Source: Agarivorans litoreus
Lineage (GTDB): Bacteria > Pseudomonadota > Gammaproteobacteria > Enterobacterales > Celerinatantimonadaceae
Direction: 5' to 3'
Length of the DNA: 64,000 nt
Assembly: GCF_019649015.1 (NCBI RefSeq)
Contig: NZ_BLPI01000001.1
Location: forward strand, 496,001-560,000
The translations under genes were made by a program, and so were the position numbers. Of the stretch, positions 3,825 through 31,532 are shown piece after piece. The number at the start of each line of letters is the position of its first letter. Within the stretch, counting starts at the first letter, position 1. A model generated the notes under the pieces. The model was not told the origin of the DNA and made no database searches. It saw only the letters and a list, made by a program, of their open reading frames with translations.

Positions 3825-3840
3825 CTGACCAATCACTCAG
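3825..3840 (-). promoter_or_regulatory. RutR-like operator (site 1)
   Basis: The sequence CTGACCA-AT-CACTCAG lies between the 3' end of the TetR gene and the start of the deaminase-puuE operon. The left half matches the RutR half-site except at the first base; the right half is the most degenerate of the five sites in this window. It is followed by CTTTTTGCT, which also follows site 4. Confidence 0.5.
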
Positions 3841-3849
3841 CTTTTTGCT

Positions 3850-4479
3850 TTAGCTTTTTAAGCCAATCCCGCGAATAACTATATCAATCACGTTTTGTTC
3901 GGCCTTGGCAAAATCTTCTGCACTTAAGGTTTTACCGTTAATCATTCTAATTTCGGTATCAAAGTCGGCGTAAAATTGAGTAGCTCCCCAAATCAAAAAC
4001 AACAGGTATAAAGGTTCTATAGCTGCAATTTTTTCTTGGTCTACCCAAGCTTGAATCAAGCTACATTTGTTTTTAGTCCAATCTACAACAGGAAATTGCA
4101 AGTTGCCCTTTAGGTTAGGAGCACCTTGGATAATTTCCATGGCAAAGATCCGAGAGCTTTTAGGATGGCTACGGCTGTAACGCATTTTAGAGCGAATATA
4201 AGCACTAATTGCTTGCTCGGGATCGTCGTTAGCGGTGGTGTTTTCAAAGGCATCGTTCCACATATCTACAATATCTTCGAGCAAGGTTTTGTATAGGCCT
4301 TGTTTAGATTTGAAGTAATACAGAATGTTAGCCTTAGGCAACTCGGCTCTGTCGGCAATGGCTTGTAGGGAGGTGCCTTGGTAACCGTGTTTTACAAATT
4401 CATTGGTTGCCGCTTTAAGAATAAGCCGTTCATTCTTTTTCCTAATTGCGCCACTTTGCCCTGCCGTAGCTTTAGCCAT
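3850..4479 (-). CDS. TetR-family regulator, RutR-like, probable purine-catabolism repressor
   Basis: I place the start at the ATG at 4477-4479 (MAKATAGQSG) because AAGGAG lies 10 bases upstream; the frame stays open further but that extension encodes the ribosome-binding site. The 209-residue product has a TetR helix-turn-helix (FVKHGYQGTSLQAIADRA, then LPKANILYYFKSKQGLY) and a C-terminal ligand domain with LEDIVDMWNDAF and RIFAMEIIQGAP, as in the RutR/YcdC C-terminal family. RutR of E. coli responds to uracil/thymine and binds TTGACCA-NN-TGGTCAA. Five matching sites sit beside purine genes here, one of them between this gene and the divergent ABC genes, suggesting autoregulation. A purine or urate-type ligand is an inference. 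Confidence 0.88.
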   Translation of the reverse strand: MAKATAGQSGAIRKKNERLILKAATNEFVKHGYQGTSLQAIADRAELPKANILYYFKSKQGLYKTLLEDIVDMWNDAFENTTANDDPEQAISAYIRSKMRYSRSHPKSSRIFAMEIIQGAPNLKGNLQFPVVDWTKNKCSLIQAWVDQEKIAAIEPLYLLFLIWGATQFYADFDTEIRMINGKTLSAEDFAKAEQNVIDIVIRGIGLKS

Positions 4480-4676
4480 GCTAACCCACTCTCCTTGTTG
4501 AACTTTAATGCCGAAGCTTAATAGCAAAGTATTATTAATGATTAATATGTAAATCACTAGCGCTCAACAAAAAAAAGCGATAAACGCACCATAACGCGAC
4601 AAAACTTGCCATACTTCGCACCATCAAAGCACAACAAAAAACCAACAATTGCAACTTATTAGCTACAGCACTGAAC

Positions 4677-4692
4677 TTGAACAGTTGGTCAG
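4677..4692 (+). promoter_or_regulatory. RutR-like operator (site 2) in the divergent regulator/ABC promoter region
   Basis: TTGAACA-GT-TGGTCAG differs from the consensus TTGACCA-NN-TGGTCAA at one position in each half. It lies 56 bp upstream of the ABC ATPase ATG and about 200 bp upstream of the TetR start, so it could control both. Confidence 0.7.
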
Positions 4693-4747
4693 ATTTATGC
4701 AATAAGACCAGCCAAGCGGATAGAATGCAAAAACGAATGGACGCAAA

Positions 4748-6298
4748 ATGAAACCAGAGCAAAGCTTGTTGTCTTTATGGCGGGTGACAAAACGTTACCC
4801 CGGCGTAATTGCCAACGATAAAGTAAGCCTAGACTTAGCCGAAGGAGAAATCTTAGCGCTACTAGGTGAAAATGGCGCAGGGAAATCAACCCTGGTCAAA
4901 ATGATCTACGGAGTTATTCAGCCCGACGAAGGCGGCCTACTATGGAAAGGGAAAGAGCAATTAATACGCTCGCCTAACATGGCCAGAGCTATGGGTATTG
5001 GCATGGTATTTCAGCATTTCTCGGTATTTGAAACTCTCACCGTGCAAGAGAACATAGCGTTAAGCTTAGATGCTGGTGTAGTTAAAGATGCCGCAGCGCT
5101 ACGAGCAAAGATCGTTGAGCTAAGCAATGCCTACGAGCTAAAAGTTGAGCCCGACCGTTATGTGCATAACCTAAGCATTGGTGAACGCCAAAGGCTGGAA
5201 ATTTTGCGTTGCTTAATTCAAGACGTAAAACTGCTGATTTTAGATGAGCCCACCTCTGTACTCACCCCGCAAGAAGTGGCCGGTTTGTTTAAGGTATTGC
5301 GCACCTTGGCAAGCCAAGGCTGCAGTATTTTGTTTATTAGCCACAAGCTAAAAGAAGTCACCGAGCTGTGTGATCGCGCAGTTATATTACGTGGCGGTAA
5401 AGTGAGTGGAGAATGTATTCCTTCACAAGAAACGCCAGAGTCTATCGCTGGCATGATGGTAGGTAGCGACACCCAACTATCGGAACGCTACCAAAAACGC
5501 ATTGGCTCAGACGAATTAATGGTAGTGAGTAATTTAAGCGTGCCACCCACCAATCCCTTCGGTACAGGCCTAAATAAGGTGAACTTAAGTCTGCATCGCG
5601 GCGAAATTTTGGGTATTGCAGGGGTTGCAGGTAATGGCCAAGAAGATTTACTCGAAGCGCTTAGCGGCGAAGATACTCGAGCTGCCGCCGACAGCATTTT
5701 AATCGGTAAACGCAAAGTAGGTAAATTGCATGCTGGCGAGCGCCGCTTGTTAGGCATGAGTTATGTTCCCACCGACCGACTAGGCCAAGGGGCGGTGCCA
5801 GAAATGAGTTTGGCCGACAATACCTTGCTTACCAGCGCGCGCAAGGGCTTGGTAAGCAAAGGGCTAATTTTGCCGCACAAAGTGGTGGAGCTCGCCAAAA
5901 CCATTATTCATCGAAATGACGTTAAATGTCATAACGCCCACGCCCAAGCTAAAAGCTTATCGGGCGGCAACCTACAAAAATTTATTATTGGTAGAGAAGT
6001 AGACCAAAATCCAGAAATTTTGATTTGTGCTCACCCCACCTGGGGCGTAGACATTGGCGCAGCTAGCGCAATTCATCGCCAACTGATTGAACTTCGCGAT
6101 AAAGGTGCTGCTATTTTGGTGGTGTCAGAGGATATTGATGAGCTGTTTATGATCTCCGATCGCATTGCCGCCTTATATGAGGGGCAACTTTCTGAGGCGG
6201 TGCATACCGAGCAAACCAATATCGAAGAAATTGGCAAATGGATTGCCGGTGGATTTGTCCATAGCGATAGCGAGCAAGGAGGCCAAGCGTATGCTTAA
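4748..6298 (+). CDS. ABC transporter ATP-binding protein, BMP-type nucleoside/purine uptake
   Basis: A 516-residue double ABC ATPase of the simple-sugar/nucleoside (RbsA/NupA-like) class. The first half has Walker A GENGAGKST at 40-48, signature LSIGERQRLEI near 143 and Walker B LLILDEPTS near 160. The second half has a degenerate P-loop GVAGNGQED near 295, a good signature LSGGNLQKFIIGRE and the class-typical AHPTWGVD. It works with the two permeases downstream and presumably with the BMP-family binding protein at 16828-17907, which is not in this operon. It overlaps the next gene by 8 bases. Substrate is likely a purine nucleobase or nucleoside, judged from the neighbourhood. Confidence 0.93.
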   Translation: MKPEQSLLSLWRVTKRYPGVIANDKVSLDLAEGEILALLGENGAGKSTLVKMIYGVIQPDEGGLLWKGKEQLIRSPNMARAMGIGMVFQHFSVFETLTVQENIALSLDAGVVKDAAALRAKIVELSNAYELKVEPDRYVHNLSIGERQRLEILRCLIQDVKLLILDEPTSVLTPQEVAGLFKVLRTLASQGCSILFISHKLKEVTELCDRAVILRGGKVSGECIPSQETPESIAGMMVGSDTQLSERYQKRIGSDELMVVSNLSVPPTNPFGTGLNKVNLSLHRGEILGIAGVAGNGQEDLLEALSGEDTRAAADSILIGKRKVGKLHAGERRLLGMSYVPTDRLGQGAVPEMSLADNTLLTSARKGLVSKGLILPHKVVELAKTIIHRNDVKCHNAHAQAKSLSGGNLQKFIIGREVDQNPEILICAHPTWGVDIGAASAIHRQLIELRDKGAAILVVSEDIDELFMISDRIAALYEGQLSEAVHTEQTNIEEIGKWIAGGFVHSDSEQGGQAYA

Positions 6299-7397
6299 AA
6301 CTCAAGCCCGTTTAGAGTCATCAAAGTTGATGTCTTGGCTCTCACCACTCATCGCTATTGTTCTCACCATGTTGGTGTCTAGTGTGATGTTTTGGGCCCT
6401 AGATATAAACCCAGCCACCGCCTTTAAAGTGTTTATCATCGACCCGCTTAGTGATGGCTATAACTTAGGCGAGTTAATGGTGAAAACCACTCCGTTACTG
6501 CTTTGTGCTACGGGTTTAGCCTTGTGCTACAAAGCCAATATTTGGAATATTGGTGCAGAAGGCCAATTGCTGGTTGGCGCATTGGTGGGCAGCTATTTTG
6601 CACTGCAAGCCAATGAGCAAAGTGGCTATCTGTGGTTACTTGTCACCCTCGCAGCAGGGGCATTAGCCGGTATGATTTGGGCGGCCATCCCTACTCTGCT
6701 GCATCAGCTATTTCATACCAACCTTATTCTTACCACTATCATGCTCAACTACATTGGCTTGTATTTGCTGCTGTGGGGCGTGCATGGTCCCTTAATTGAC
6801 CCAGACGGATTTGGTTTCCCAGAGTCAGCCATTTTTGCCGATAGCGTATTGCTACCTACCATTATGGAAGACGGCCGCGCTTCCATTAGTATTCTCTTGG
6901 CGGTGGTATTTGCTATTGGCTCTGGGATCATTTTGTATCGCACCTTACCTGGGTTTCAGTTGCGAGTATTTGGCTCCGACCAACCTGCTGCACGTTACGC
7001 GGGTTATAGCAGCAAGTTTATTGTTTGGAGCGTAATGCTAAGCGCCGGCGCACTGGCAGGTTTTGCTGGGGTGGCAGAAGTGACAGGCCCAATTGGTCAG
7101 CTCATCCCACAAGTCTCTCCAGGTTATGGTTACGCCGCCATTATTGTGGCCTACCTTGGCAGGCTAAATCCCTTTGGCATCATTTTCGCCGCATTCTTCA
7201 TGGGTACTTTATACATGGGCAGCGATTTAGCCCAAATAGAACTCGGTATGCCCACTGCCATCACTGGTTTATTCCAAGGTGTACTGCTGTTTTTCTTACT
7301 CGCTTGTGACTTTCTCATTCATTACAAAATAGTCTGGCAGCCCAGCGCGGGCGTAGCGCAACCCTCTTCATCTAGTGCTAAGCAAGGAGCTGCATAA
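6291..7397 (+). CDS. ABC transporter permease (BMP-type, first subunit)
   Basis: The start is the ATG at 6291 (MLKTQARLES), preceded by AGGAGG 9 bases upstream inside the end of the ATPase gene; the frame is open upstream but that part overlaps the ATPase. The 368-residue protein is a BPD_transp_2-family permease with about ten membrane helices and the conserved ALCYKANIWNIGAEGQLLVG around residue 83 and GFQLRVFGSDQPAARYAGY around 222. It forms the transmembrane core with the next gene, whose ATG shares a base with this stop. Confidence 0.92.
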   Translation: MLKTQARLESSKLMSWLSPLIAIVLTMLVSSVMFWALDINPATAFKVFIIDPLSDGYNLGELMVKTTPLLLCATGLALCYKANIWNIGAEGQLLVGALVGSYFALQANEQSGYLWLLVTLAAGALAGMIWAAIPTLLHQLFHTNLILTTIMLNYIGLYLLLWGVHGPLIDPDGFGFPESAIFADSVLLPTIMEDGRASISILLAVVFAIGSGIILYRTLPGFQLRVFGSDQPAARYAGYSSKFIVWSVMLSAGALAGFAGVAEVTGPIGQLIPQVSPGYGYAAIIVAYLGRLNPFGIIFAAFFMGTLYMGSDLAQIELGMPTAITGLFQGVLLFFLLACDFLIHYKIVWQPSAGVAQPSSSSAKQGAA

Positions 7398-8326
7398 TGG
7401 ACATGGAACTACTGCAACAAATATTGGTAGCAGCAATTAAAACTGGAACCCCCTTGTTATTAGTAGCGCTAGGCGAGCTAATTTGTGAAAAATCTGGAGT
7501 ACTCAATTTAGGCCAAGAAGGTATGATGTTAATGGGCGCTATGGCTGGCTTTGCCGGTGCCTACTTTACTGGCAACTTAGCCTTAGGTTTATTGCTAGCG
7601 GTAATTGCAGGCATGTTAATGGCGGGCATATTTGGGCTACTCTCGTTAAACCTTAATACCAACCAAGTGGCAACTGGCTTAGCGCTTACTATTTTTGGCA
7701 CCGGTTTAAGTGCTTTCTTGGGTGCAAGCTTGGTTGGCTCTACCATTAACGGCTTTAAGGCGATTTCAATTCCTTTGTTAAGTAATATTCCAATGCTTGG
7801 GGCTTTGCTATTTCAGCATGACATTTTGGTATATGGTAGTTTTGCTTTAGTGGCAATAACTTGGTGGGTTGTGAATAAAACCCGCGCAGGTTTAACCTTG
7901 CGCGCCGTGGGCGAAAACCCTTATTCTGCCAATGCTCTTGGCATTAAGGTAATAAAAGTTCGTTATATTGCGGTGCTTTTTGGCGGCGCAATGGCAGGCT
8001 TAGCTGGCGCTTATATGTCGCTTTCTTATACCCCAATGTGGATGGAAAACATGACCGCTGGCCGCGGCTGGATTGCGTTATCGTTAGTGGTGTTTGCATC
8101 ATGGCGTGTAGGTTATTTAATGGTAGGCGCTTACCTGTTTGGCGCAGCCTCTATTTTGCACTTAGTGATGCAAGGCATAGGCTTTACCATATCGCCTAAC
8201 TTGCTAGCGATGATGCCTTACGTGGCAACTATTGTGGTAATGGTAATGATTAGTGCCAACCCAATTCGCCAGAAACTAGCGGCTCCAATGAGCCTAGCGA
8301 AACCCTTTGACGCTCGCCGCCATTAA
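7397..8326 (+). CDS. ABC transporter permease (BMP-type, second subunit)
   Basis: A 309-residue BPD_transp_2 permease with the characteristic LGELICEKSGVLNLGQEGMM near residue 25, LTLRAVGENPYSANALGI near 165 and AGRGWIALSLVVFASW near 217. The ATG overlaps the previous stop (TAATG), so the two permeases are coupled. It ends the ABC operon proper; the nucleotidase-like gene starts 84 bases later in the same direction with no terminator that I can see, so it may be cotranscribed. Confidence 0.92.
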   Translation: MDMELLQQILVAAIKTGTPLLLVALGELICEKSGVLNLGQEGMMLMGAMAGFAGAYFTGNLALGLLLAVIAGMLMAGIFGLLSLNLNTNQVATGLALTIFGTGLSAFLGASLVGSTINGFKAISIPLLSNIPMLGALLFQHDILVYGSFALVAITWWVVNKTRAGLTLRAVGENPYSANALGIKVIKVRYIAVLFGGAMAGLAGAYMSLSYTPMWMENMTAGRGWIALSLVVFASWRVGYLMVGAYLFGAASILHLVMQGIGFTISPNLLAMMPYVATIVVMVMISANPIRQKLAAPMSLAKPFDARRH

Positions 8327-8410
8327 TAAGCAGGCCAATTTATTGAAGCAAATACTTCAAGCTAGCCAGCAAACTAACGTATTATGCTTGCCCGCTAGTT
8401 TGGAGTAGTC

Positions 8411-10084
8411 ATGACTTATTCGCTGTACCTTGCTCACATCAACGATACCCACTCGCATTTTGAGCCTACTTTGGTTCATTTTGAAGTGACCATAAACCAA
8501 GAGGTTTACCAAGTAGACGCATACTGCGGCGGGTATGCACGATTAGCTACAGCGGTAAAACAACACCACGCCTTGGCAACACAAAATAATCGCTCAAGCC
8601 TGTTTTTACACGCTGGCGATAGCTTTCAAGGCAGTTTGTATTTTAGCCAGTTTAAAGGTGAAGCTAACGCTCATTTACTCAATTTGATGTCGGTAGATGC
8701 CATGACCATCGGCAATCATGAGTTTGATCTTGGCAATGCTCCGGTGTCTAAATTTGTTGATCAGGTTAACTTCCCCTGCCTTGCCGGCAACATGGATTTA
8801 AGCCAGGAAGATCAGCAAAAGCATTTACCTTTAGCTCCCCATAACAATCTGTATTACTACAACAACGAGCTGGCCATTGCTAACTATCTGCTTAAGCCCT
8901 TAGGCGACCAGCAATTAGCCATTGTAGGCATCACTCACGACCAGATGCACAACATTGGTTGCCCCGATGCCGACTGCCATTTTTTGAACGCCATCGAAAC
9001 CACTCAAGCTACGGTTAAGCACTTAAAGCAACAAGGCGTAAATCACATCGTCATACTTAGCCATTTAGGTTATGAAGGCGATATTGCCTTAGCCAAAGCC
9101 GTGACTGGCATAAGTGTGATTGTTGGTGGCCACTCACACACATTAACCGGCGAGTTTGGCCATTTAGGGCAAGCTTGTACCGGAAATGAAGGCCAATGGC
9201 AGAATGGCTGCTTGGTACTACAAGCTGGCAAACATGCAGAATCTATAGGTTTAAGCTGCTTACACTTTGATAAGAATGGCAAGGTTATTAAGCTTGAAGG
9301 CGGAACCCAATTTCTTATCGATGATAACTGGCAAGCCAAACAAAACGGGCAGATAGTTTGCAATGAAACTCGCCGTCTCATTAGCGACTATTTGGCTAGC
9401 GCCCCAGGGCTATTAAAGTGCTCTGATGATCAGCAAATCAGCGAGATCATCAATCAACAATATCGTCCAGCGGTTGAACAAATGAAAAGCCAAGTAGTGA
9501 CCAAACTCAGCCAGCCTTTACGCCATAGTAGAATGCCAAATAAAGAGCTACCCAATGGCAGTGAAATTGCGCCGCTAATTTGCCAAGGATTTTACCAAAC
9601 CTCTGCTGCCAAGCACCCTACCGATTTTGCCTTGCACAATGCTGGCGGCGTTCGCGTATCGCTAAAAGCAGGCCCTTTGAGTAAAGCAGATATTTGCGGT
9701 CGTTTGCTGCCCTTCGAAATAACCTTAATGAGTTATTTAATTAAGGGCGAAGATTTAGCCATGGCCATTGAAGGTGCCATTAACAATGCCACTAACAATG
9801 GCTTAATGGGTACTGGCGATGGCAGCTTTCCCTACTTTTACAAACTGCGTTATAGCTACCAAGCCCACAAACCTCTTGGGCAGCGCGTTAGCCACATACA
9901 ACTTGAAGATGAGCAAGGCTGGCAAGCTTTGCAGCTACAGCGGGTTTATCGTGGAGTGTCTTCTGCCTATACCTTGGCAGGTAAAGAAGGCTACGACGCA
10001 TTATTAAACAGCTGGGATCATCACGATTTAGAACTTAGCATGAGCGACAGTTTTATTGCTTTTGCCAACAACTGCGAATTGTAG
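8411..10084 (+). CDS. Bifunctional metallophosphatase/5'-nucleotidase (UshA/YfkN class), no signal peptide
   Basis: A 557-residue protein with an N-terminal calcineurin-like metallophosphatase domain (INDTHSHFEP at 10-19, HAGDSFQGS near 76, TIGNHEFDLGN near 99, LSHLGYEGD near 217, VGGHSHT near 238) and a C-terminal 5'-nucleotidase domain (ALHNAGGVRVSLKAGPL near 410, PYFYKLRYSY near 476). Most relatives are exported, but this one begins MTYSLYLAHINDTHSH with the first metal-binding motif at residue 9, leaving no room for a signal peptide. It is therefore probably cytoplasmic, where it could dephosphorylate nucleotides to nucleosides. Its place after the purine ABC operon suggests a salvage/catabolic role, which is inference. 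Confidence 0.9.
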   Translation: MTYSLYLAHINDTHSHFEPTLVHFEVTINQEVYQVDAYCGGYARLATAVKQHHALATQNNRSSLFLHAGDSFQGSLYFSQFKGEANAHLLNLMSVDAMTIGNHEFDLGNAPVSKFVDQVNFPCLAGNMDLSQEDQQKHLPLAPHNNLYYYNNELAIANYLLKPLGDQQLAIVGITHDQMHNIGCPDADCHFLNAIETTQATVKHLKQQGVNHIVILSHLGYEGDIALAKAVTGISVIVGGHSHTLTGEFGHLGQACTGNEGQWQNGCLVLQAGKHAESIGLSCLHFDKNGKVIKLEGGTQFLIDDNWQAKQNGQIVCNETRRLISDYLASAPGLLKCSDDQQISEIINQQYRPAVEQMKSQVVTKLSQPLRHSRMPNKELPNGSEIAPLICQGFYQTSAAKHPTDFALHNAGGVRVSLKAGPLSKADICGRLLPFEITLMSYLIKGEDLAMAIEGAINNATNNGLMGTGDGSFPYFYKLRYSYQAHKPLGQRVSHIQLEDEQGWQALQLQRVYRGVSSAYTLAGKEGYDALLNSWDHHDLELSMSDSFIAFANNCEL

Positions 10085-10227
10085 CGACCTAGCAATTAGG
10101 TCTACATATCAGTCTTAGTTGTTTTCTGTAGGTAGGCCAACTGCTAAGCATAATTTCCTTACTGGATGGGACGGTAAATTGGCTTGTGTTAAGCAAATGT
10201 GAGAGACTAAAGATTCTTTATCTCTAA

Positions 10228-10233
10228 AAGGAG
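10228..10233 (+). promoter_or_regulatory. Ribosome-binding site placed for an ATC start
   Basis: A perfect AAGGAG, 7 bases before ATC at 10241-10243. No ATG, GTG or TTG exists in the correct frame near it, so this site defines the proposed non-canonical start of the SRPBCC gene. Confidence 0.5.
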
Positions 10234-10240
10234 TCACGTA

Positions 10241-10711
10241 ATCTCACCTAAAAAAATTAGATGGCCTCAGTACTACCACCCCAAACACTCTCAAATACAC
10301 GTTAAGAATCAAATTGATATACCAGCCACTCCGGAAGAAGTTTGGTCTAGCTTGGTGCACGCCCCAAATTGGCCTAGCTGGAACCACAACTCAACCTCAG
10401 TGCACATTCTCGACGGCAAAGGGCACGCTTTATCTAAAGGCGCAAACTTTTACTTAAAAACAAAGCTAGCCACCATTAAAGGCACTGTTGTAGAGTTCAT
10501 CCCCAACAAACGGCTGGCATGGAAAGGTAAAGTCGGCACTGCAGATATGTATCACGCTTGGATTCTCCAGCCTTCGAACAAAGGGTGTAAAATCATCACA
10601 GAAGCCACTCGACGCAATGGTCTCACTTGGCTAAATAAATATATTATGTCAAACAAGATTCATTCACATCATCGTAAGTGGCTAAGATCAATACAAGAAC
10701 AGATTTGCTAA
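10241..10711 (+). CDS. SRPBCC (START-like) family protein with a non-canonical start
   Basis: The first ordinary start in frame is TTG at 10352, but coding similarity clearly begins earlier: the in-frame residues VKNQIDIPATPEEVWSSL directly before it form the first strand and helix of the SRPBCC fold, and NWPSWN after it completes the usual motif. The frame is open from 10211 with no ATG/GTG/TTG, while AAGGAG sits 7 bases before ATC at 10241. I therefore annotate ATC as the start (156 residues); a mutated ATG or a base-call error is an equal possibility. The rest (KGTVVEFIPNKRLAWKGKVG, then HAWILQPSNKGCKIITEATR) fits a polyketide-cyclase/lipid-transfer-like ligand-binding domain. Ligand unknown. 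Confidence 0.7.
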   Translation: MSPKKIRWPQYYHPKHSQIHVKNQIDIPATPEEVWSSLVHAPNWPSWNHNSTSVHILDGKGHALSKGANFYLKTKLATIKGTVVEFIPNKRLAWKGKVGTADMYHAWILQPSNKGCKIITEATRRNGLTWLNKYIMSNKIHSHHRKWLRSIQEQIC

Positions 10712-10743
10712 AATACTTGCCGGTTTGCGCCAATAAATAGTAG

Positions 10744-10772
10744 CTAACTAAATGGAAGATACATTTAGTTGG
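10744..10772. repeat. Inverted repeat upstream of the GNAT gene
   Basis: An 11-bp arm CTAACTAAATG pairs with CATTTAGTTGG (one G-T pair) around a 7-base loop. No T-run follows on either side, so this is not a standard terminator. It lies 28 bp before the acetyltransferase start. Confidence 0.4.
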
Positions 10773-10800
10773 CCGTCGATGAAGGGATCAAGGACAAAAA

Positions 10801-11434: not shown

Positions 11435-11500
11435 CTACTATTTGAAGCAGCTTAAGGCATTCGCTTTTAGGCTTTCAATTTTAAGATAGGTATCAAGCAC

Positions 11501-12289
11501 ATGAGCAAAACCATTTTAATTACCGGTGCAACCGACGGCATTGGTTTAGTTACCGCCAAGCAATTGCTAGAGCAGGGTCATAAGGTGCTGCTTCATGGCC
11601 GCAACCCAGCCAAACTCGAGTCTGTTAAAAATCAATTAAGCGTGAATGGCGCGCAAGTAGATACCTTTGTAGCCGACCTATCCAAGCTTGAGCAAGTTGA
11701 TGAGCTAGCCAAACAAGTAGCAAGCAAGTACAGCAGTTTAGATGTAGTGATTAACAATGCCGGAGTATTTAACATCCCCGAACCGCGCAATGCTCAAGGG
11801 CAAGATTTACGCTTTATAGTAAACACCCTCGCCCCATACAAGCTCACCAAAGCGCTACTGCCTTTAATGGGTAAAAGTGGCCGTGTTGTGAACCTATCGT
11901 CTGCAGCCCAAGCCACGGTAGATTTAGACGCGCTAAAAGGTAACCGCCAGCTTAGTGACAACTCTGCTTATGCGCAAAGCAAGCTGGCACTAACCATGTG
12001 GTCTCGCGAGTTGGGCTTAGCGCTCAAAGACAGTGGCCCAATCGTAGTATCGGTTAACCCTAAATCGCTACTTGGCAGAAAAATGGTGAAAGACGCCTAC
12101 GGTATTGCTGGCGGCGATTTAAGCATTGGTGCAGATATACTCGTAAGAGCCAGCTTATCAGAAGAATTTAATGATGCTGCAGGCCTATATTTTGATAACG
12201 ACATCGGCCAATTTGCCTCACCCCACCCCGATGCATTAAACGCCCAAAAATCCGGGCAAGTTGTTGAGTTGATAGAAGCGCTCATCTAA
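11501..12289 (+). CDS. Short-chain dehydrogenase/reductase (SDR)
   Basis: A 262-residue classical-type SDR. The cofactor motif TGATDGIGLVTAKQL is at residues 8-22, followed by the R in HGRNPAKLE that favours NADP(H), NNAGVFN near 85, the catalytic serine in VVNLSSAAQ near 130 and YAQSKLAL (Tyr-x-x-x-Lys) near 153. The C-terminal part is short, as in retinol-dehydrogenase-like members. Substrate cannot be told from the sequence. It is monocistronic. Confidence 0.9.
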   Translation: MSKTILITGATDGIGLVTAKQLLEQGHKVLLHGRNPAKLESVKNQLSVNGAQVDTFVADLSKLEQVDELAKQVASKYSSLDVVINNAGVFNIPEPRNAQGQDLRFIVNTLAPYKLTKALLPLMGKSGRVVNLSSAAQATVDLDALKGNRQLSDNSAYAQSKLALTMWSRELGLALKDSGPIVVSVNPKSLLGRKMVKDAYGIAGGDLSIGADILVRASLSEEFNDAAGLYFDNDIGQFASPHPDALNAQKSGQVVELIEALI

Positions 12290-12360
12290 TAGCTTAAGCG
12301 CTTCTAAACGTTACTAACACAGTGGCGTTTTACTTTTCAGTGTTTCGGTTTTATTAATTA

Positions 12361-12573
12361 CTAGCGGCGTAACTGGTAACAAAAACATTTCGCGATTTGA
12401 CGCAACAGCAACTCGTTGTCAGGTATTGCGTAGTTAGCCTCGGGCATAATTAATCGTTGATTTAGCAGAACACAAGGCTCATCGTTCGTACTTAAAGACG
12501 CCAGCTTAGAAACTTTGCTATAAGTACATAATAACGCATTACTAAACATACTAATTAACACAAATATAGCCAT
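12361..12573 (-). CDS. Doubtful short ORF, hydrophobic N-terminus
   Basis: A 70-codon frame starting MAIFVLISMFSNALLCTYSK with a possible signal or membrane segment, then a polar tail ending LLLRQIAKCFCYQLRR. No ribosome-binding site precedes the ATG and no family is recognised. Codon choice is not obviously random, so a small secreted peptide or a gene fragment cannot be excluded. Confidence 0.22.
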   Translation of the reverse strand: MAIFVLISMFSNALLCTYSKVSKLASLSTNDEPCVLLNQRLIMPEANYAIPDNELLLRQIAKCFCYQLRR

Positions 12574-12623
12574 TAGTGCGCTAACTTAGCCATAGTGTTT
12601 CTAAAACGACAAGAGAGTTAAGC

Positions 12624-13292
12624 ATGTCTACCCAAGCCATTCTGTTCGATATTAATGAGACTGTGCTCGACTTAAGTGCCTTAAGGCCAAAGTTTCGCCA
12701 CTACATGGGAAGTGAAAGCCATACAGATACGTGGTTCGCTATGCTCCTTCATTCCTCTAACGTGTGCTTAGTAACAGGCATAAATACTAACTTTAGGGAG
12801 TTGGCGCTGGCGGCTTTGCAATCAATTGCAGCACGTTTAGGTAAAAATCTCTCACACGAAAACTACCTTGATATTTTGAGTACATTTACCAGCTTACCCG
12901 CTCACAGCGACATAAAACCTGCGCTAACCATACTACGCAAGGCTGGATTTAAGCTTGCCGCTTTTTCAAACTCATCGTCAGAATTGCTTAAGTCTCAACT
13001 TAGCCACTCTGGCTTGTTGGCTCATTTCGATGATGTCATTTCAGTAGAAAGTGCTAATACCTTCAAACCATCAATAACCGCTTATAATTATGCAGTAGAA
13101 CGGCTGGCTCTTCCTCCGAACAATATCCGTTTGGTTGCCACTCACGATTGGGATACCCATGGAGCATTAAGTGCTGGCTTAAAAGCAGCCTATATCAATA
13201 GACTAAATGTCCCTTACAATCCACATTATGTAAAGCCTGATATCGCTGCTGGTAACATGCACGATATCACTAAACAAATCATTGAAAGGTGA
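12624..13292 (+). CDS. HAD-superfamily hydrolase, haloacid dehalogenase type II-like
   Basis: A 222-residue HAD protein. Motif I is FDINETVLDLS at residues 8-18, with the Asp nucleophile and the DxNETLLD form typical of the 2-haloacid dehalogenase type II subgroup; motif II is AFSNSSSELLKSQL near 113; motif III Lys is in ANTFKPSITAY near 149; motif IV is VATHDWDTHGA near 173. Substrate might be a 2-haloacid or a small phosphate ester; nothing nearby decides it. Single gene, plus strand. Confidence 0.87.
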   Translation: MSTQAILFDINETVLDLSALRPKFRHYMGSESHTDTWFAMLLHSSNVCLVTGINTNFRELALAALQSIAARLGKNLSHENYLDILSTFTSLPAHSDIKPALTILRKAGFKLAAFSNSSSELLKSQLSHSGLLAHFDDVISVESANTFKPSITAYNYAVERLALPPNNIRLVATHDWDTHGALSAGLKAAYINRLNVPYNPHYVKPDIAAGNMHDITKQIIER

Positions 13293-13872
13293 AGACAAAA
13301 GCACCAATTAATCCACTTAATTTAGCTGAGGAAAAAGTAATTGCAGCAATACTTGGTTCACTAAGCATTTTTTTATTTCAGCTACTTATGAGACTAACTG
13401 TGTTAACCAGTAAATGGACCTAGATGTCGCCAATTCACTACGACACCAATAGCAATGGGTTCTTTGTTGTTTGGTTTTGTGTCCGCAATCTAAACAGGAA
13501 TGAATGGCCGGCTTGGTTACTTTGCCATCCCTCACTCCATCTTGTTTAAAAGGTCAGTCTCAGATAGGCCTACCTGTTTCGACAATCACTCCGACATTGC
13601 TTAATTCGCTAGCCTAAGGTGTTGATTCACTCTTCCAAAAACTCGATACTTCTTGAGTTGTTATTCGCTCGAAACCGAGTTCTGTGTGCCTTTAGCAGCA
13701 TTCCTATCAATTTGACCAGCCTGAAACAAATCCCAAATAAAACCAAGCATACTAACTTCCGGTATTGCAAAACTATTTATCTAGTTATTCCAAACCTAGA
13801 ACTAAAAGCTATCACTTTGTATATCTATAACCAACGATAAAAGCGCCCTAAGCAATCTTTGTCTACTCAAGA
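13293..13872. other. 580-bp region without an intact gene
   Basis: Between the HAD gene and the convergent monooxygenase-like gene I see only the decayed zinc-ribbon gene at 13386-13597. The rest (13600-13870) has an open plus-strand frame with no ribosome-binding site and no recognisable protein, and I see no repeat or RNA gene. Confidence 0.5.
13386..13597 (-). pseudogene. Decayed small zinc-ribbon protein gene
   Basis: On the minus strand ATG at 13597 opens a frame with TGA at codon 4, then LSKQVGLSETDLLNKME. After a one-base frame change the peptide continues RDGKVTKPAIHSCLDCG, then HKTKQQRTHCYWCRSEL, and ends at 13386. The two CxxC pairs (CLDC and CYWC, 12 residues apart) look like a zinc ribbon. 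One in-frame stop plus one frameshift suggests decay; the length, 212 bases, is one short of 71 codons. I do not know the family. Confidence 0.4.
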
Positions 13873-14223
13873 CTAAGCAAATACTGGTGCGTCAAAATCT
13901 TCTGCTTCGTCGCTGTATACACAAACATTTGAATCTTCTACTAAGCCTGTTTCTGCAACACAATGGGTTTGAAAAAACTCACTAATTTCTTTGCGTTGGC
14001 AGTGTGCTTCAAAGCTTTCTTTATCCGCCCAAATCTCTTGAAAGGCGATGGGATAACCAGTGCCCTGAGCAAAGGGGTTGTCAATTTGGCGTGTAACCGT
14101 GTATTGAATACAGCCATCTTCGCGCAAGGTGTTTGGCTCTAACGCTTGCAATACTTTAAACAGCTCGTTTTGCTTACCAGCTTTAGGTTTAAACATGGCA
14201 ATACAATAGATCTTTTTAGACAT
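13873..14223 (-). CDS. Antibiotic biosynthesis monooxygenase (ABM) domain protein, YgiN-like
   Basis: A 116-residue single-domain protein of the dimeric alpha-beta barrel ABM type. It begins KIYCIAMFKPKAGKQNELFK, with the usual strand then helix, followed by LREDGCIQYTVTRQ near residue 33, QEIWADKESFEAH near 62 and the His-containing C-terminal helix. Such proteins include quinol monooxygenases and heme-degrading relatives; the exact activity is not predictable. The C-terminal acidic tail (SDEAEDFDAPVF) extends past the domain. It lies downstream of the 14319-14822 gene with a hairpin between them. Confidence 0.85.
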   Translation of the reverse strand: MSKKIYCIAMFKPKAGKQNELFKVLQALEPNTLREDGCIQYTVTRQIDNPFAQGTGYPIAFQEIWADKESFEAHCQRKEISEFFQTHCVAETGLVEDSNVCVYSDEAEDFDAPVFA

Positions 14224-14242
14224 TAGGCTTCCTTAATAAAGC

Positions 14243-14259
14243 GGCGAGCTGAGCTCGCC
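14243..14259 (-). terminator. Weak terminator-like hairpin
   Basis: Perfect GGCGAGC/GCTCGCC stem with a 3-base loop. On the minus strand it is followed by CGCTTTATT, a poor T tract, so it may be an attenuator between the two minus-strand genes. Confidence 0.4.
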
Positions 14260-14318
14260 ATTCTTAAAAAGATCAATAATAAGCCTTTGTGCGGGCAAAC
14301 GCTGCAACTAATTGGCTA

Positions 14319-14822
14319 TTAGCAAGCTCTATAGCGCTGGGTTTGCATCGCCAATAAGCGTTTGTAGGCTAACTCTTGACGCAGAGCTGGCGAGCCTTCG
14401 CACCAATTATATTCCAGCGGCTCCCAAAGTGGATCTTTAGGTGATAAACCCAAAGCCTCAATATAACTTGCCTTGGCCACTACATATTGGCTTTTGTAGG
14501 GGAGGATCACCCCACCCTGCTTGGCTTGCAGAGCCAGAGCCTCTGGATAATTGGCGCACCAATGATTAAGCAAGGCCATACAAGCAGGCGAGTACCAAAA
14601 CTTGCCGCTATCTTGTTGCATGGTTTGCTTGTGCTGACACGACAATACACTTTGGGCGTGTTGCCAGTCTTTAAAGCCCGCTTCTCGCGCTACATACAAC
14701 AAGGCATGTTTTAGTTGTGGTGATTTGTCTTTAGCTAAACTTGCCAATGGGGAATCGGCAGTATGGCGCTGTTTAAGCAAAATTTTACTGCGAATTTTAA
14801 GTTCTTCAACGGCAGATAACAT
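14319..14822 (-). CDS. Conserved hypothetical protein
   Basis: A 167-residue soluble protein with no recognised domain. N-terminal residues 6-20 (EELKIRSKILLKQRH) are a basic helix, followed by LYVAREAGFKDWQHAQSVL, a motif of the kind LAREAGFxxWxxLK found near the start of several uncharacterised proteins. The C-terminal half contains five Trp residues and SKASYIEALGLSPKDPLWE-like segments, suggesting a compact domain. It has no signal peptide. It is probably the first gene of a minus-strand pair with the ABM-domain gene. Function unknown. Confidence 0.7.
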   Translation of the reverse strand: MLSAVEELKIRSKILLKQRHTADSPLASLAKDKSPQLKHALLYVAREAGFKDWQHAQSVLSCQHKQTMQQDSGKFWYSPACMALLNHWCANYPEALALQAKQGGVILPYKSQYVVAKASYIEALGLSPKDPLWEPLEYNWCEGSPALRQELAYKRLLAMQTQRYRAC

Positions 14823-15028
14823 CTCTATGCTCCTAAATACTTAAGTTGTTCCCCGCAAAACAATATTCAGAATGACATACAGTGTCGTAATGATGTGTAA
14901 CTAAGCATGTGCTTACACACTTGGTATTTAGGGTGAGTTCCTCTTGGCGGGCAGGCGCCCCTTAGCACCTGCCAACATTCTGCCAAAGCTATTTTGATTA
15001 TACAAGTAAACTCTAAAGGCCATTAATT

Positions 15029-16417
15029 CTATGATTGTTGAGCACTTGGTTTGAATTGAGCCGCTGCTGAAGATTGCTGCTCAGGTAATAGTAAACTGAG
15101 TATGATTGCCACTAAACCACCTGAGGTAACAGCTGAACCAAAGATGTTTTGAACCAGTTTAGGCGCGTGTTGTAATAGGTCGGGTACCATTGTCACGCCT
15201 AAACCTACGCCAAAAGAAACGGCCATAATCAGCAATTTACGTCGACAAAGTGTTTCGCTAGCAATAATTTTAATTCCCGCTGCCGCCACTGTACCAAACA
15301 TTACCAAGGTGGCTCCGCCTAACACTGGTTTAGGAATTTGCTGTAAAACAGCGCCCAAAATAGGGAACAATCCCAACACCACCAGTATTAACGCAATGTA
15401 ATAACCGATGTACCGACTAGCTACGCCGGTTAGTTGAATCACTCCATTATTTTGGCTAAAAGTGGTGTTTGGAAAAGTGTTAAAAACAGCGGCAATTAAG
15501 GAGTTAACGCCATCGGCTAGCACTCCGCCACGTACTCGTTTTAAGTAGCGGTCTCCTTTAATCTCTTGCTGCGAGATAGCGCAGTTAGCGGTAATATCGC
15601 CCGCCGATTCTATTGCCGTAATAAAGTAGATAAGCGCAATAGGAAGAAAGGCCACCCAGTCAAAACTAAAACCATATTTAAAAGGAATAGGAATACTCAC
15701 CCAAGGTTGCGAGCCTAGCGAAGAAAAGTCTACTTTCCCCATAAATAGCGCGATTAACATACCAGCGAGCAAGCCAATAACAATTGATGAGAGGCGCAGC
15801 CAAGGATTTGCCGAACGGTTTAAAGCAATAATAATTGCCAACACAGTGAAGCCTAAGCCTAGGTTTTGTAAGCTACCAAAATCGGCAGCTTTAAAGCCCC
15901 CCGCCAAATCGGTCATGCCTACTTTTATCAGCGAAATACCAATAATAGTAATCACTATTCCGGTCACCAATGGAGTGATGATTTTCTTCATCTTAACCAG
16001 CATTTGCGATAAGAAAATCTCAATAAAAGCGCCTAAAAAGCAAATACCAAATATTAACGACAATATTTCTTCGGGACCGCCGCCTTGGCTTTTAGCAATA
16101 AAGCCTGCCGCCAATATAGAGCCTAAGAAAGCGAAACTGGTACCTTGCACACAAATCATGCCTGCGCCAACAGGGCCCAATTTTTTGGCCTGAATGAAGG
16201 TACCTACACCTGATACGATGAGCGCCATACTAATTAGGTAGGGAATATGCGCGCCTAAGCCTAATACGCCGCCAATAATCAAAGTTGGCGTTATCACACC
16301 AACAAAACATGCCAATACATGTTGTAGCCCAGCGAAAAAAGCTTCTGCTACTGGAGGCCTCTCGTCTAGGTGGTACAACAGCTCTTTTGGTATCGCTTTT
16401 TCCTTATTAGCGTTCAT
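15029..16417 (-). CDS. xanP: Xanthine permease XanP-like, NCS2 family
   Basis: A 462-residue nucleobase:cation symporter-2 protein, the same size as E. coli XanP. It has about 14 membrane segments, the family motif QNNGVIQLTGVASRYIG near residue 321, FFAGLQHVLACFVGVITP-like N-terminal helix with the conserved QH pair near residue 32, and ITAIESAGDITANC near 265 containing the substrate-region Glu. It imports xanthine (possibly urate) by proton symport. It is transcribed divergently from the BMP binding protein gene, with two RutR-like palindromes in the 410-bp space between them. Confidence 0.93.
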   Translation of the reverse strand: MNANKEKAIPKELLYHLDERPPVAEAFFAGLQHVLACFVGVITPTLIIGGVLGLGAHIPYLISMALIVSGVGTFIQAKKLGPVGAGMICVQGTSFAFLGSILAAGFIAKSQGGGPEEILSLIFGICFLGAFIEIFLSQMLVKMKKIITPLVTGIVITIIGISLIKVGMTDLAGGFKAADFGSLQNLGLGFTVLAIIIALNRSANPWLRLSSIVIGLLAGMLIALFMGKVDFSSLGSQPWVSIPIPFKYGFSFDWVAFLPIALIYFITAIESAGDITANCAISQQEIKGDRYLKRVRGGVLADGVNSLIAAVFNTFPNTTFSQNNGVIQLTGVASRYIGYYIALILVVLGLFPILGAVLQQIPKPVLGGATLVMFGTVAAAGIKIIASETLCRRKLLIMAVSFGVGLGVTMVPDLLQHAPKLVQNIFGSAVTSGGLVAIILSLLLPEQQSSAAAQFKPSAQQS

Positions 16418-16457
16418 GCTTTGCTCCCTATTATTAAGCTAAATCACAAGCAGATAT

Positions 16458-16473
16458 TTGACCACTAGGTCAG
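16458..16473 (-). promoter_or_regulatory. RutR-like operator (site 3), xanP promoter side
   Basis: TTGACCA-CT-AGGTCAG has a perfect left half and two changes in the right half relative to TTGACCA-NN-TGGTCAA. It lies 41 bp upstream of the xanP ATG. Confidence 0.7.
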
Positions 16474-16735
16474 CTTAATAACGCAAGTAACTTGCCAACT
16501 AGCATCACCTCCTCTAGTAAAACTTGGGTAACGCCCACTAATCACCACTTAGTAAGTAACATGCAATACACATATTCCTTACATCTACATTAAGAGCCAT
16601 AGGCTAAGCTAACTACACACGCTTAGCTTTGGTGCGTAGCGTTGATAAGTTGCACCAAAAAACGCCATAAATAAGCATAAGGCTGCTAACAATTAAGACA
16701 TCTATTTACAACAAAACTTGTATTCACTGTGTTCT

Positions 16736-16749
16736 TTGACTTAAATCAA
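16736..16749 (+). promoter_or_regulatory. FNR-like palindrome upstream of the BMP binding protein gene
   Basis: TTGAC-TTAA-ATCAA matches the FNR/Anr consensus TTGAT-N4-ATCAA with one mismatch. It is just upstream of RutR-like site 4. Chance occurrence is possible. Confidence 0.35.
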
Positions 16750-16754
16750 AAAAC

Positions 16755-16770
16755 ATGACCAAGTGGCCAG
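16755..16770 (+). promoter_or_regulatory. RutR-like operator (site 4), binding-protein promoter side
   Basis: ATGACCA-AG-TGGCCAG keeps the core GACCA-NN-TGG of the consensus. It lies 58 bp upstream of the BMP binding-protein ATG and is followed by CTTTTTGCT, as is site 1. Confidence 0.65.
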
Positions 16771-16827
16771 CTTTTTGCTACCACTAATCAAAACCCGAAA
16801 CACCGAACAATTGAAACGGAGTTCTTA

Positions 16828-17907
16828 ATGAAACTAAATAAATGGATAAGTGCTGCAGCCTTTGCTGTAACCAGCTTGATAACACCAGCCAGCATGGCCG
16901 CCGACGAGCCACTAAAAGTAGGCTTTGTATATGTAGGACCAGTGGGTGACCACGGTTGGAGTTATGAGCACGACCAAGGCCGGATTGAAATGGAACAGCA
17001 CTTTGGCGGTAAAGTAAGTACCACCTTTGTTGAGAATGTTCCCGAGGGCGCCGATGCAGAGCGAGTGATTACCCAATTGGCTAAATCGGGTCACGACGTC
17101 ATTTTCACTACATCCTTTGGTTTTATGAACCCAACTATCAAAGCCGCTAAACGTTTTCCTAAAGTTACCTTTGAACACGCTACCGGCTACAAACGCAGCA
17201 AAAACGTGTCTACTTATGTATTACGTACCTACGAGGGCCGCTATGTGTCTGGCGTAGCCGCTGGCATGACGACCAAAACCAATGTGATTGGTTACATTGC
17301 CTCGTTCCCTATTCCGGAGGTGATCCGTGACATTAACTCGGTGTACTTAGGCGCGAAAAGCGTAAACCCAGACGTGCAAATTAAGATTGTATGGGTAAAT
17401 ACGTGGTACGACCCAGGTAAAGAAGCAGACGCAGCCAACGCCTTAATGGACCAAGGTGTCGACATTATTTTGCAACACACCGACAGCCCTGCCCCACTTA
17501 TTGCTGCCGAGAAGCGCGGCGTAATGGGCATTGGTCAAGCATCAGATATGAGCCAATTTGCTCCTACTGCTCACATGTTCTCGGTTCGAGATGTATGGGC
17601 ACCCCACTACATTCGCACCGTAGAAGAAGTAATAGCGGGTTCTTGGAAGCCAGAAGATTACTGGGGTGGTTTTGCAGAAGACATTCTACAAATTGTTTCA
17701 GTTAACCCAGCCTTACCCGACGACGTAAAAACCGCCATTAGCGAAACCGAAGCCAAGATAAAATCAGGTGAATTTCATCCCTTTACTGGCCCTATGAAAG
17801 ATAACAGCGGCAAAGAGGTGATCCCAGCGGGTAAAACACTTAACGACCAAGAGCTAGCTGGCGTGATGTGGTACGTAGAAGGCATCGACGCTACGATTCC
17901 TAAGTAA
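16828..17907 (+). CDS. BMP-family ABC transporter substrate-binding protein
   Basis: A 359-residue periplasmic protein with a Sec signal peptide (MKLNKWISAAAFAVTSLITP..., cleavage likely after SMA, residue 24). The mature start PLKVGFVYVGPVGDHGWSYEHDQG is the BMP (PnrA-like) family signature, followed by NVPEGADAERVITQLAKSGHDVIFTTSFGF, FEHATGYKR near 115 and VWVNTWYDPGKE near 190. It is followed 26 bases later by a GC-rich hairpin that would favour high expression of this gene alone. Likely partner of the ATPase/permeases at 4748-8326; the family binds purine nucleosides or bases. Confidence 0.93.
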   Translation: MKLNKWISAAAFAVTSLITPASMAADEPLKVGFVYVGPVGDHGWSYEHDQGRIEMEQHFGGKVSTTFVENVPEGADAERVITQLAKSGHDVIFTTSFGFMNPTIKAAKRFPKVTFEHATGYKRSKNVSTYVLRTYEGRYVSGVAAGMTTKTNVIGYIASFPIPEVIRDINSVYLGAKSVNPDVQIKIVWVNTWYDPGKEADAANALMDQGVDIILQHTDSPAPLIAAEKRGVMGIGQASDMSQFAPTAHMFSVRDVWAPHYIRTVEEVIAGSWKPEDYWGGFAEDILQIVSVNPALPDDVKTAISETEAKIKSGEFHPFTGPMKDNSGKEVIPAGKTLNDQELAGVMWYVEGIDATIPK

Positions 17908-17933
17908 ACCTAGACCCTAAGTCCTAAATAAGT

Positions 17934-17950
17934 GCCCAGCTAAGCTGGGC
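17934..17950 (+). terminator. Hairpin / partial terminator after the binding-protein gene
   Basis: Perfect 7-bp stem GCCCAGC/GCTGGGC with a TAA loop followed by CTTTACT. The short T tract suggests partial termination before the dioxygenase gene, whose ATG is 18 bases further. Confidence 0.55.
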
Positions 17951-17968
17951 CTTTACTGCGAGAATGAG

Positions 17969-18925
17969 ATGAATTTAGCCCTACCCATTATTGATATTTC
18001 TACGCTAGATAATAGCGATAGTCAGCACTGGCAAGAAACCATTCAAGCCATTGATTCTGCCTGTCGTGACAAGGGCTTTTTTTATGTGACCGGTCATGGC
18101 ATTCCTGGCGAACAATTTGCTGCTATGCAAGCCATGGCTGCTAAGTTCTTTGCTCTTAGTGAACAAGAAAAACAAAAGATCAATATTCAGCACTCGGCCA
18201 ACCATAGAGGTTGGGGACAAGTAAGCGCCGAGCAACTAGACCCAAGCGGCCCTAAAGACTGCAAAGAGACCTTTGATATGGCTTTAGATCTTAGCCCTTA
18301 TCATCCACAAGTTGCGCGTTACCCACAGTTGTACGGACCAAACCAGTACCCAAATCTTGACGGCTTTATCCAACTTTTGCAGCAGCATTACGAACTCACT
18401 TTGCAAGTTGGCCTCAAAATACTTAAAGCCATGGCTTTAGCCTTGGGCCAAAGCGAAGACTTTTTTAGCAAGCATTTTAGCTGCCCGATTAGTGTGCTGC
18501 GCTTAATTCATTATCCACCTCAGCAACAAAATGATAACGGCGCTGGCGCACACACAGACTATGGCTGCATTACCTTGCTTTATCAGGATCAAACCGGTGG
18601 TCTACAGGTACAAGATCGCAACCAACAGTGGCTAGATGCTCCTCCAGTGGAGAATAGCTTTGTGGTAAATATTGGCGATTTAATGCAGCGCTGGACCAAT
18701 GGACATTACAAGTCTACGCCGCATAGAGTACTTAGTCCAAAACAGCAAACTACTCGCTTTTCAATGCCATTTTTTGTAGAGCCAGACTTTGATACTCCAG
18801 TGAATACTCTCGCGAGCTGTTTAGCTCCTGGGGAACAAAGTCAGTATCCCGAAATAACGGCTGGTGAATGGATACTATCGCGCTTTGCCGATACTTACGC
18901 TTATAGAAACGACCAGCAAGAATAA
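17969..18925 (+). CDS. 2-oxoglutarate/Fe(II) dioxygenase, isopenicillin-N-synthase-like family
   Basis: A 318-residue DIOX-fold enzyme: N-terminal LPIIDISTLD and GFFYVTGHGIP near 31-42, the metal pair in GAGAHTDYGCITLL (His-x-Asp) near 192, and the distal His plus 2-oxoglutarate-binding Arg in KSTPHRVLSPKQQTTRFSMP near 249-268. It sits between the purine binding-protein gene and the xanthine dehydrogenase operon, in the same direction. Relatives of this family include thymine 7-hydroxylase, so a hydroxylation of a methylated or other purine is plausible, but the substrate is unknown. It is unrelated to the TauD-type fungal xanthine dioxygenase. Confidence 0.88.
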   Translation: MNLALPIIDISTLDNSDSQHWQETIQAIDSACRDKGFFYVTGHGIPGEQFAAMQAMAAKFFALSEQEKQKINIQHSANHRGWGQVSAEQLDPSGPKDCKETFDMALDLSPYHPQVARYPQLYGPNQYPNLDGFIQLLQQHYELTLQVGLKILKAMALALGQSEDFFSKHFSCPISVLRLIHYPPQQQNDNGAGAHTDYGCITLLYQDQTGGLQVQDRNQQWLDAPPVENSFVVNIGDLMQRWTNGHYKSTPHRVLSPKQQTTRFSMPFFVEPDFDTPVNTLASCLAPGEQSQYPEITAGEWILSRFADTYAYRNDQQE

Positions 18926-18930
18926 AAAAT

Positions 18931-18958
18931 TTGACCAAAAAGCTGACCAAACAGTCAG
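18931..18958 (+). promoter_or_regulatory. RutR-like operator (site 5) with an extra half-site, xdh operon promoter
   Basis: The best match is CTGACCA-AA-CAGTCAG at 18943-18958. A further perfect left half-site TTGACCA lies at 18931-18937, 12 bp upstream. The pair lies 30 bp before the xdhA ATG, a position where a bound repressor would block transcription. Confidence 0.65.
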
Positions 18959-24471: not shown

Positions 24472-24472
24472 A

Positions 24473-31448: not shown

Positions 31449-31532
31449 CTACGACTTCGGCCAGAGTTTCAGTCGCTCGGTGCTAAACATCATGAAACCA
31501 CTAAACATTAGCAATGCGATTGGCAGGACGAC
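31449..31532 (-). pseudogene. Displaced final helix of the MFS transporter
   Basis: After the T5 tract, the other frame reads VVLPIALLMFSGFMMFSTER then LKLWPKS and a TAG at 31449-31451. This is a hydrophobic segment and charged tail as expected at the end of an MFS protein. Confidence 0.7.

Follow-up and report, generated by a model that had tools for sequence, protein, structure and literature searches.

The 64,000-nucleotide stretch of Agarivorans litoreus DNA analysed here (contig NZ_BLPI01000001.1, positions 496,001 to 560,000; hereafter the window) holds a gene for a RutR-like TetR regulator, genes for purine uptake and oxidation, and five 16-bp palindromes that are candidate operators of this regulator. 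A sequence-only reading had pointed out the palindromes at 3825, 4677, 16458, 16755 and 18943. Direct inspection of the sequence bore them out, together with their intergenic placement ahead of purine genes or the ABC transporter operon, all five lying 46-73 bp from a gene start. The features concerned are given below; ranks refer to a scan with an operator matrix trained on relatives of the regulator.

1473..2369, minus strand: allantoinase PuuE (TIGR03212, 510 bits, cut-off 424.6)
2378..3775, minus strand: 8-oxoguanine deaminase-type amidohydrolase (NF006055, 642 bits, cut-off 532)
3825..3840: candidate operator 1, CTGACCAATCACTCAG, 65 bp ahead of the 8-oxoguanine deaminase gene and directly past the stop codon of the regulator gene (rank 5 of 63,985)
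3850..4479, minus strand: RutR-like TetR regulator, 209 amino acids from the ATG at 4479
4677..4692: candidate operator 2, TTGAACAGTTGGTCAG, in the gap that separates the divergently oriented regulator and ABC genes, 71 bp from the ABC ATPase gene and about 200 bp from the regulator gene (rank 2)
4748..8326, plus strand: ABC transporter operon (ATPase 4748-6298, permeases to 7397 and 7397-8326)
15029..16417, minus strand: xanthine permease of the XanP/PbuX type, xanP (TIGR03173, 453 bits, cut-off 414)
16458..16473: candidate operator 3, TTGACCACTAGGTCAG, 56 bp ahead of xanP (rank 1)
16755..16770: candidate operator 4, ATGACCAAGTGGCCAG, 73 bp ahead of the BMP binding-protein gene (rank 4)
16828..17907, plus strand: BMP/PnrA-like ABC substrate-binding protein (PF02608, 172.7 bits)
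18943..18958: candidate operator 5, CTGACCAAACAGTCAG, 46 bp ahead of xdhA (rank 3)
18989..23640, plus strand: xanthine dehydrogenase genes xdhA 18989-20404, xdhB 20397-22763 and xdhC 22735-23640 (xdhA and xdhC above their cut-offs, xdhB named by position)

The regulator reading frame is open up to 4557, yet its homologues in the genus share the start at ATG-4479. An additional half-site, TTGACCA, lies at 18931, near operator 5. The exact form initially ascribed to the sites, TTGACCA-NN-TGGTCAA, did not hold: none of the five is an exact TTGACCANNTGGTCAA, and in coordinate order they differ from it by 5, 2, 2, 3 and 4 mismatches. The consensus over relatives of the same subfamily is CTGACCANNTGGTCAG. 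The accompanying claim that no site of equal quality occurs elsewhere in the window failed when its own consensus was scanned with up to three mismatches, since this gave nine matches, three of the five sites and six others (2.6 expected; none of 100 window shuffles gave nine). The claim did hold with a symmetric matrix for which 80 named relatives, with no kin of the window named in their titles, supplied 58 distinct sites. The training sites were chosen with the E. coli consensus as guide, so that the matrix is blind to the window, though not to the idea. With it, the five sites occupied ranks 1 to 5 of the 63,985 window positions (scores 19.05, 18.13, 17.21, 16.12 and 14.09), and the sixth match, at 12.18, was located in coding sequence. 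At the threshold cleared by the top four sites, 500 permuted matrices gave a mean of 0.03 intergenic matches (maximum 2). As a separate observation, positions 32909-32924, in the gap ahead of an MFS transporter gene (31501-32610), match the E. coli consensus with three mismatches and rank lower than 20th with the trained matrix.

The sites were conserved within the genus. In six further genomes of the genus, sites were found at about the same place ahead of the ABC operon (6/6), the BMP gene (6/6), xdhA (6/6), xanP (5/5, the genomes with this gene found on the fetched stretch) and the deaminase gene (5/6); three of the six are close to the genome of the window, with regulators 97-99% identical. 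When four or five genus members, the window among them, were aligned for each promoter, invariant columns numbered 59 of 80 within the sites versus 210 of 670 in the flanks. From these alignments G163 was omitted for the deaminase promoter, G093 for xanP, and G034 and G124, which are near the window, throughout. All 16 columns of operator 4 were invariant, as were 14 of 16 in operator 2 (five genus members, window included). The counterparts of the 3825 site read TTGACCAACTAATCAA in G009 and TTGAGCGCTTGGTCAG in G109, and the xdhA promoter carries TTGACCATATGGACAG or TTGTCCATTTGGTCAG in a further two genera of the family.

Beyond the genus, the pairing of regulator and purine genes recurred. 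For the 80 named relatives, neighbour labels were taken from tblastn, replacing reading-frame calls that were poor in GC-rich Pseudomonas. At least two purine-cluster homologues were present in 53 loci, one in 14 and none in 13, and no locus received a pyd or rut label; weak pyd or rut homologues (24-33% identity) in L174, L181, L194 and L197 were not counted for it. An adenosine-deaminase-family gene was found in 10 of the 13 loci lacking a purine-cluster homologue. Upstream of seven target genes in these 80 loci, 213 regions were inspected, and in 48 of them a site matched at 11 or more of 14 positions. In the same regions, permuted half-sites gave a mean of 1.5 and at most 30 (0/200 as high as 48), and other spacers 0 to 4. 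Sites of this quality stood ahead of xdhA in 18/21, BMP genes in 8/15, ABC genes in 5/27 and xanP in 3/19 regions, and the palindromes of the window match these sites, found at corresponding targets of subfamily members in other genera; among xanP regions, CTGAGCANNTGGACAG (10/14) occurred in 9 of the 12 rows printed. At 11 of 13 other loci of the order with purine context, the top or second matrix match was ahead of xdhA, an ABC gene or the regulator. Homologues of the ABC operon, too, adjoin regulators of this subfamily in relatives' loci, and its gene context suggests a nucleoside or purine specificity.

Regulator and purine oxidation also occurred together across 197 genomes of the order. 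A RutR-like protein (E 1e-30) was found in 66 and XdhB in 55, both in 54; the regulator stood alone in 12 genomes and XdhB alone in one, G167. Among the 55 XdhB genomes, the two genes were at most 10 kb apart in 30 and at most 30 kb apart in 42. Two genomes of the family lack xdhA: G150 had no RutR-like match, and the sole one of G175 adjoins pyd genes.

Chance palindromes were rejected as an explanation in view of the conservation, the matrix ranking and the recurrence across genera. These observations also weigh against a control of these genes by another factor or an RNA switch with the palindromes merely incidental, which we regard as very improbable. Such a view could draw on the genome-wide counts, where cores with at most one mismatch showed no numerical over-representation (68 versus 149 for the reversed control), and on the fact that, according to the accessible portion of the literature, xanthine or urate riboswitches can govern purine oxidation genes elsewhere. 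A search for riboswitches in window positions 1-28000, however, returned no Rfam match at the gathering threshold.

The regulator itself belongs to the RutR type without being RutR. It scored below the RutR equivalog cut-offs TIGR03613 (198 vs 368 bits) and NF011584 (168.4 vs 230 bits), whereas the Pfam domains TetR_N and TetR_C_3 were both above their gathering scores (50.4 and 162.4 bits vs 24 and 25). Its best matches among solved structures are RutR (E 4e-41), and the operator plan of RutR was recovered by sequence, with the same half-site and the same spacer. In a tree of 44 regulators, the clade of the window protein was distinct from both the rut clade and the pyd clade; purine neighbours mark other clades as well, e.g. 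f2/f21/f25, and one member of the pyd clade. In a larger tree with the 80 named relatives, the group of the window comprised 102 rows, of which 81 carried a purine label, 21 no label and none a rut or pyd label (support 93/92, not starred); several branches of this tree are long and 24 of its forks open, and its broad groups alone were used. The window protein was set apart from the rut-operon RutR clade in both trees and adjoins purine and transport genes instead of rutABCDEFG. Nor is it of PydR type, being outside the pyd clade and without pyd genes nearby. Both trees are unrooted and hence do not show a derivation of purine from pyrimidine control.

In RutR, as described in the available part of a structural report, K52 and K62 contact DNA, and uracil is held between W77 and W167, with further contributions from Q171, from a water on Y97 and, in the partner chain, from Q179 (PMC10891134). 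The window protein has kept the DNA-contact residues and most of the pocket, with equivalents of K52, K62, W77, Y97, W167 and Q171. Q179 is replaced by E176. Such a glutamate was present in 8/8 rows examined from the family of the window, glutamine being found in 92/94 other subfamily rows, and a tryptophan takes the place of L137 of RutR in 98% of the 102 subfamily rows. The two exchanges hint at an altered pocket. They also bear on the alternative that the regulator still senses uracil, a surplus of which would signal nucleic-acid breakdown in general and switch on purine catabolism. W77, W167 and Q171, retained in 94/94 other subfamily rows, and the prevalence of Q179 among them would suit such a sensor; the glutamate in the window's own family and the subfamily tryptophan would not, nor would gene contexts that are mostly purine, apart from beta-alanine genes in Pseudomonas and a cytidine deaminase at locus L070. 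We consider uracil sensing doubtful. In the f2/f21/f25 purine clade, W77 itself is missing (L in 4/4).

We estimate at roughly 80% the probability that the five palindromes are operators at which the 3850-4479 regulator represses units for purine uptake and oxidation, and from which it is released by a nucleobase bound in the uracil pocket. Bound close to where five transcription units begin, a dimer would keep down both uptake (xanP, BMP, ABC) and purine oxidation (deaminase-puuE, xdhABC onward), until a nucleobase fitting the old uracil pocket releases it. Most likely the effector would be xanthine or urate, purine 2,6-diones with the dione face of uracil on their six-membered ring; uracil would be the main alternative. 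That the regulator binds, that it represses instead of activating, and what its effector would be are inferences; the predicted purine regulon as such is well supported by the comparisons above. A pyrimidine regulon at these promoters was rejected by context, no pyd or rut gene having been seen at any of the five sites.

Several observations weigh against this assignment. The site at 3825 is weak by itself (9/14 matches) and rests on its orthologues; in G163, where other genes part regulator and deaminase, it has no clear counterpart, the best being TTAATCAAGTGTTAAA (10/14). Among the named relatives, sites with at least 11/14 matches were rare ahead of the deaminase (2/37), puuE (2/14) and regulator genes (10/80), as at the ABC genes already mentioned. 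Two of the 13 purine-context loci of the order, L063 and L085, lacked a good site, and L055, left out of that set, has its regulator away from the cluster and no site of at least 11/14 ahead of the regulator gene. Relatives of two enzymes suited to beta-alanine, a product of pyrimidine breakdown, namely an omega-aminotransferase and a semialdehyde dehydrogenase, were present in 42 of the 80 named loci; of these 42, all except one bear a Pseudomonas title. The p values for co-occurrence ignore shared ancestry, and the regulator of G175 has an uncertain placement in the tree. A simple scan of three stretches holding four of the five sites (the 3825 gap lay outside) found no sigma-70-like promoter, and an overlap of sites and promoters is therefore not shown. 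Finally, the same genome contains pyd operators that look alike, one of which scored above every purine site of the window, so that their regulator could bind the window sites too.

This regulator is a second RutR-like paralogue (L009 8861-9511; C1:4,292.9 kb), which adjoins genes for dihydropyrimidinase, an M20-family amidase and dihydropyrimidine dehydrogenase. It falls in the pyd clade, and its position beside reductive pyrimidine genes is a PydR-type context. The sites at this locus, CTGACCGAGCGGTCAG, TTGACCAACTGGACAG and TTGTCCGCGTGGTCAG, were given scores of 21.1, 15.4 and 15.3 by the purine matrix. When 24 purine and 18 pyd sites of our selection were compared, the commonest base was identical at each of half-site positions 1-7, and no base separating the two sets was found; the recognition helices are alike as well (PKAN[IV]LYYFK). 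The operators being indistinguishable by sequence, the assignment of paralogues to sites relies on neighbourhood and co-occurrence. All this would suit a single cross-wired nucleobase regulon in which both paralogues bind both sets of sites, as would G076, where a pyd-clade regulator stands beside BMP and xdhA genes with a perfect TTGACCAAGTGGTCAA ahead of xdhA (L088 9656-11926), a case that appears from sequence to be a change of pathway inside the pyd clade. We rate such cross-wiring at somewhat less than an even chance. In G109 the purine paralogue is the single RutR-like match at E 1e-30, and sites were nevertheless retained at all five promoters; moreover, affinity can hinge on what a matrix fails to capture. 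A more tentative, rather unlikely extension would be one operator code for all nucleobase catabolism, with paralogues tuned to purines or pyrimidines (Q179E, L137W), a conserved pocket reading the dione face common to uracil, xanthine and urate, and interchangeable operators cross-linking the pathways.

Two further observations concern pyd genes. The M20 amidase of the pyd locus (L009 7555-8823) has allantoate amidohydrolase, a purine step, as its best NCBIfam name (635 bits, cut-off 452); it was read as an N-carbamoyl-beta-alanine enzyme because of its neighbour genes. As no allantoate-splitting enzyme was named in the purine cluster of the window, the pyd locus might supply that step. At L074, G163 encodes a third RutR-like protein, which groups with the rut clade and adjoins homologues of pydA, pydB and pydC, not rut genes.

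Genome-wide, it is location, not number, that sets the motif apart. Only four perfect TGACC-N4-GGTCA cores were found in the genome: the xanP site at 16458, one at a pair of phosphoribosyltransferase genes, one at pydX and one within an open reading frame. A pattern derived from the window sites, with no or one mismatch, occurred at 11 places, of which six are within open reading frames and five intergenic, all five at nucleobase genes. Three of the 11 were exact, two sites of the window and TTGACCAAAAGGTCAG, the perfect core at the phosphoribosyltransferase pair; the remaining intergenic places, with one mismatch, lie ahead of purH and between pydB and pydC. TTGACCAAAAGGTCAG stands between two divergent phosphoribosyltransferase-domain genes (L010 3737-3752; G000:C1:3354236). 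An exact copy was present in G034, G093 and G124 and a changed one in G009 and G163; none was seen in G109. Of 12 family genomes, seven, each a member of the window's genus, had the phosphoribosyltransferase-domain gene at E 1e-40. The pair is possibly a salvage member of the regulon. The RutR-type site of purH, a purine synthesis gene, lies about 200 bp ahead of it (L012 3068-3083; G000:C1:1677567; matrix score 16.1).

The initial proposal that a RutR-like protein had been taken over locally for purine catabolism thus survives in part. A RutR-like TetR protein does lie beside its own sites, its putative targets are purine genes, and the pairing recurs in other genera. The local character does not stand: the arrangement spans a gammaproteobacterial subfamily, and a pyd paralogue with near-identical operators, together with distant sites at the phosphoribosyltransferase pair and purH, indicates that the regulon is not merely local.

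Regulators of this kind are known. E. coli RutR resembles the window protein as a TetR_C_3 protein with an inverted TTGACCA, a spacer of 2 and the same DNA-contact and most uracil-pocket residues; it differs in sequence (37% identity) and belongs to its own rut clade, whereas the window protein has purine neighbours and targets and a glutamate for Q179. The consulted section of one paper states that uracil abolishes RutR binding in E. coli (PMC6245113), and an excerpt of another already lists RutR for the purine-degradation operon hyi-glxR-ybbVW-allB-ybbY-glxK (PMC6790063). For Pseudomonas aeruginosa PA1504, a YcdC/RutR-type TetR protein near allantoin and glyoxylate genes, a possible regulatory role there has been proposed in the part of the article at hand (PMC12694930), and in the accessible text of a ChIP-seq paper it is mentioned once, as a motility regulator (PMC13086498); the likeness is that of a RutR-type protein near purine genes. 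Leyn et al. (2016; RegPrecise) reconstructed RutR sites for 68 genomes, which fall into 13 groups, with about 10.9 genes per genome and taxon-specific motif changes (PMC5343134, as far as its available text goes). In that text the regulog is filed as pyrimidine catabolism, unlike the assignment made here, and purine targets may already be among its genes.

In Pseudomonas putida, PydR is reportedly 'a RutR-like transcriptional regulator' of dihydropyrimidine dehydrogenase. It is likewise a RutR-like repressor of a nucleobase degradation operon, and its gene context is that of the second paralogue in the genome of the window (L009 8861-9511), whereas clade and neighbours both set the window protein apart from it; the likeness was judged by context, not from the PydR sequence. 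In the literature searched, which excluded RegPrecise tables and subscription papers, we found neither a tested RutR-type regulator of purine catabolism beyond the items named nor a description of a purine subfamily with conserved targets. The kind of regulator is therefore not new, and the purine subfamily with its conserved targets is the apparent novelty. Purine catabolism in many Gammaproteobacteria appears to be without an assigned regulator. If our assignment is right, a subfamily overshadowed by a pyrimidine sensor would gain a function along with targets and a DNA code, and would offer a clean test of a change of ligand pocket from uracil to purines. With two paralogues of the same operator type in one genome, cross-talk between purine and pyrimidine breakdown would be directly testable.

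The purine cluster of the window contains further genes:

8411..10084, plus strand: 5'-nucleotidase-like protein downstream of the ABC genes (best NCBIfam match nadN, 207 bits, below the cut-off of 436)
17969..18925, plus strand: 2OG-Fe(II) oxygenase between the BMP gene and xdhA (PF03171, PF14226)
23558..24471, plus strand: uraD (to 24148) and hydroxyisourate hydrolase (24145-24471), part of a purine run at 23558..26972
24473..26972, plus strand: guanine deaminase (24473-25792) and PuuD-type urate oxidase (25773-26972), part of the same run

Homologues of the oxygenase, which is of the DIOX_N type, adjoin purine genes in several Pseudomonas loci. Elsewhere in the subfamily, the regulators of L067, L069 and L070 adjoin a protein of 1042-1069 amino acids, with strong sites. 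L070 also has cytidine-deaminase-family, nuclease/phosphatase-family and alkaline-phosphatase genes, L067 and L069 being alike by eye only, and from these genes the context looks like nucleic-acid scavenging. In L065 (12662) and L066 (13022), RutR-type sites were found ahead of a permease gene divergent from an adenosine-deaminase-family gene; the permease of L065, the one locus for which families were called, is a Xan_ur_permease.

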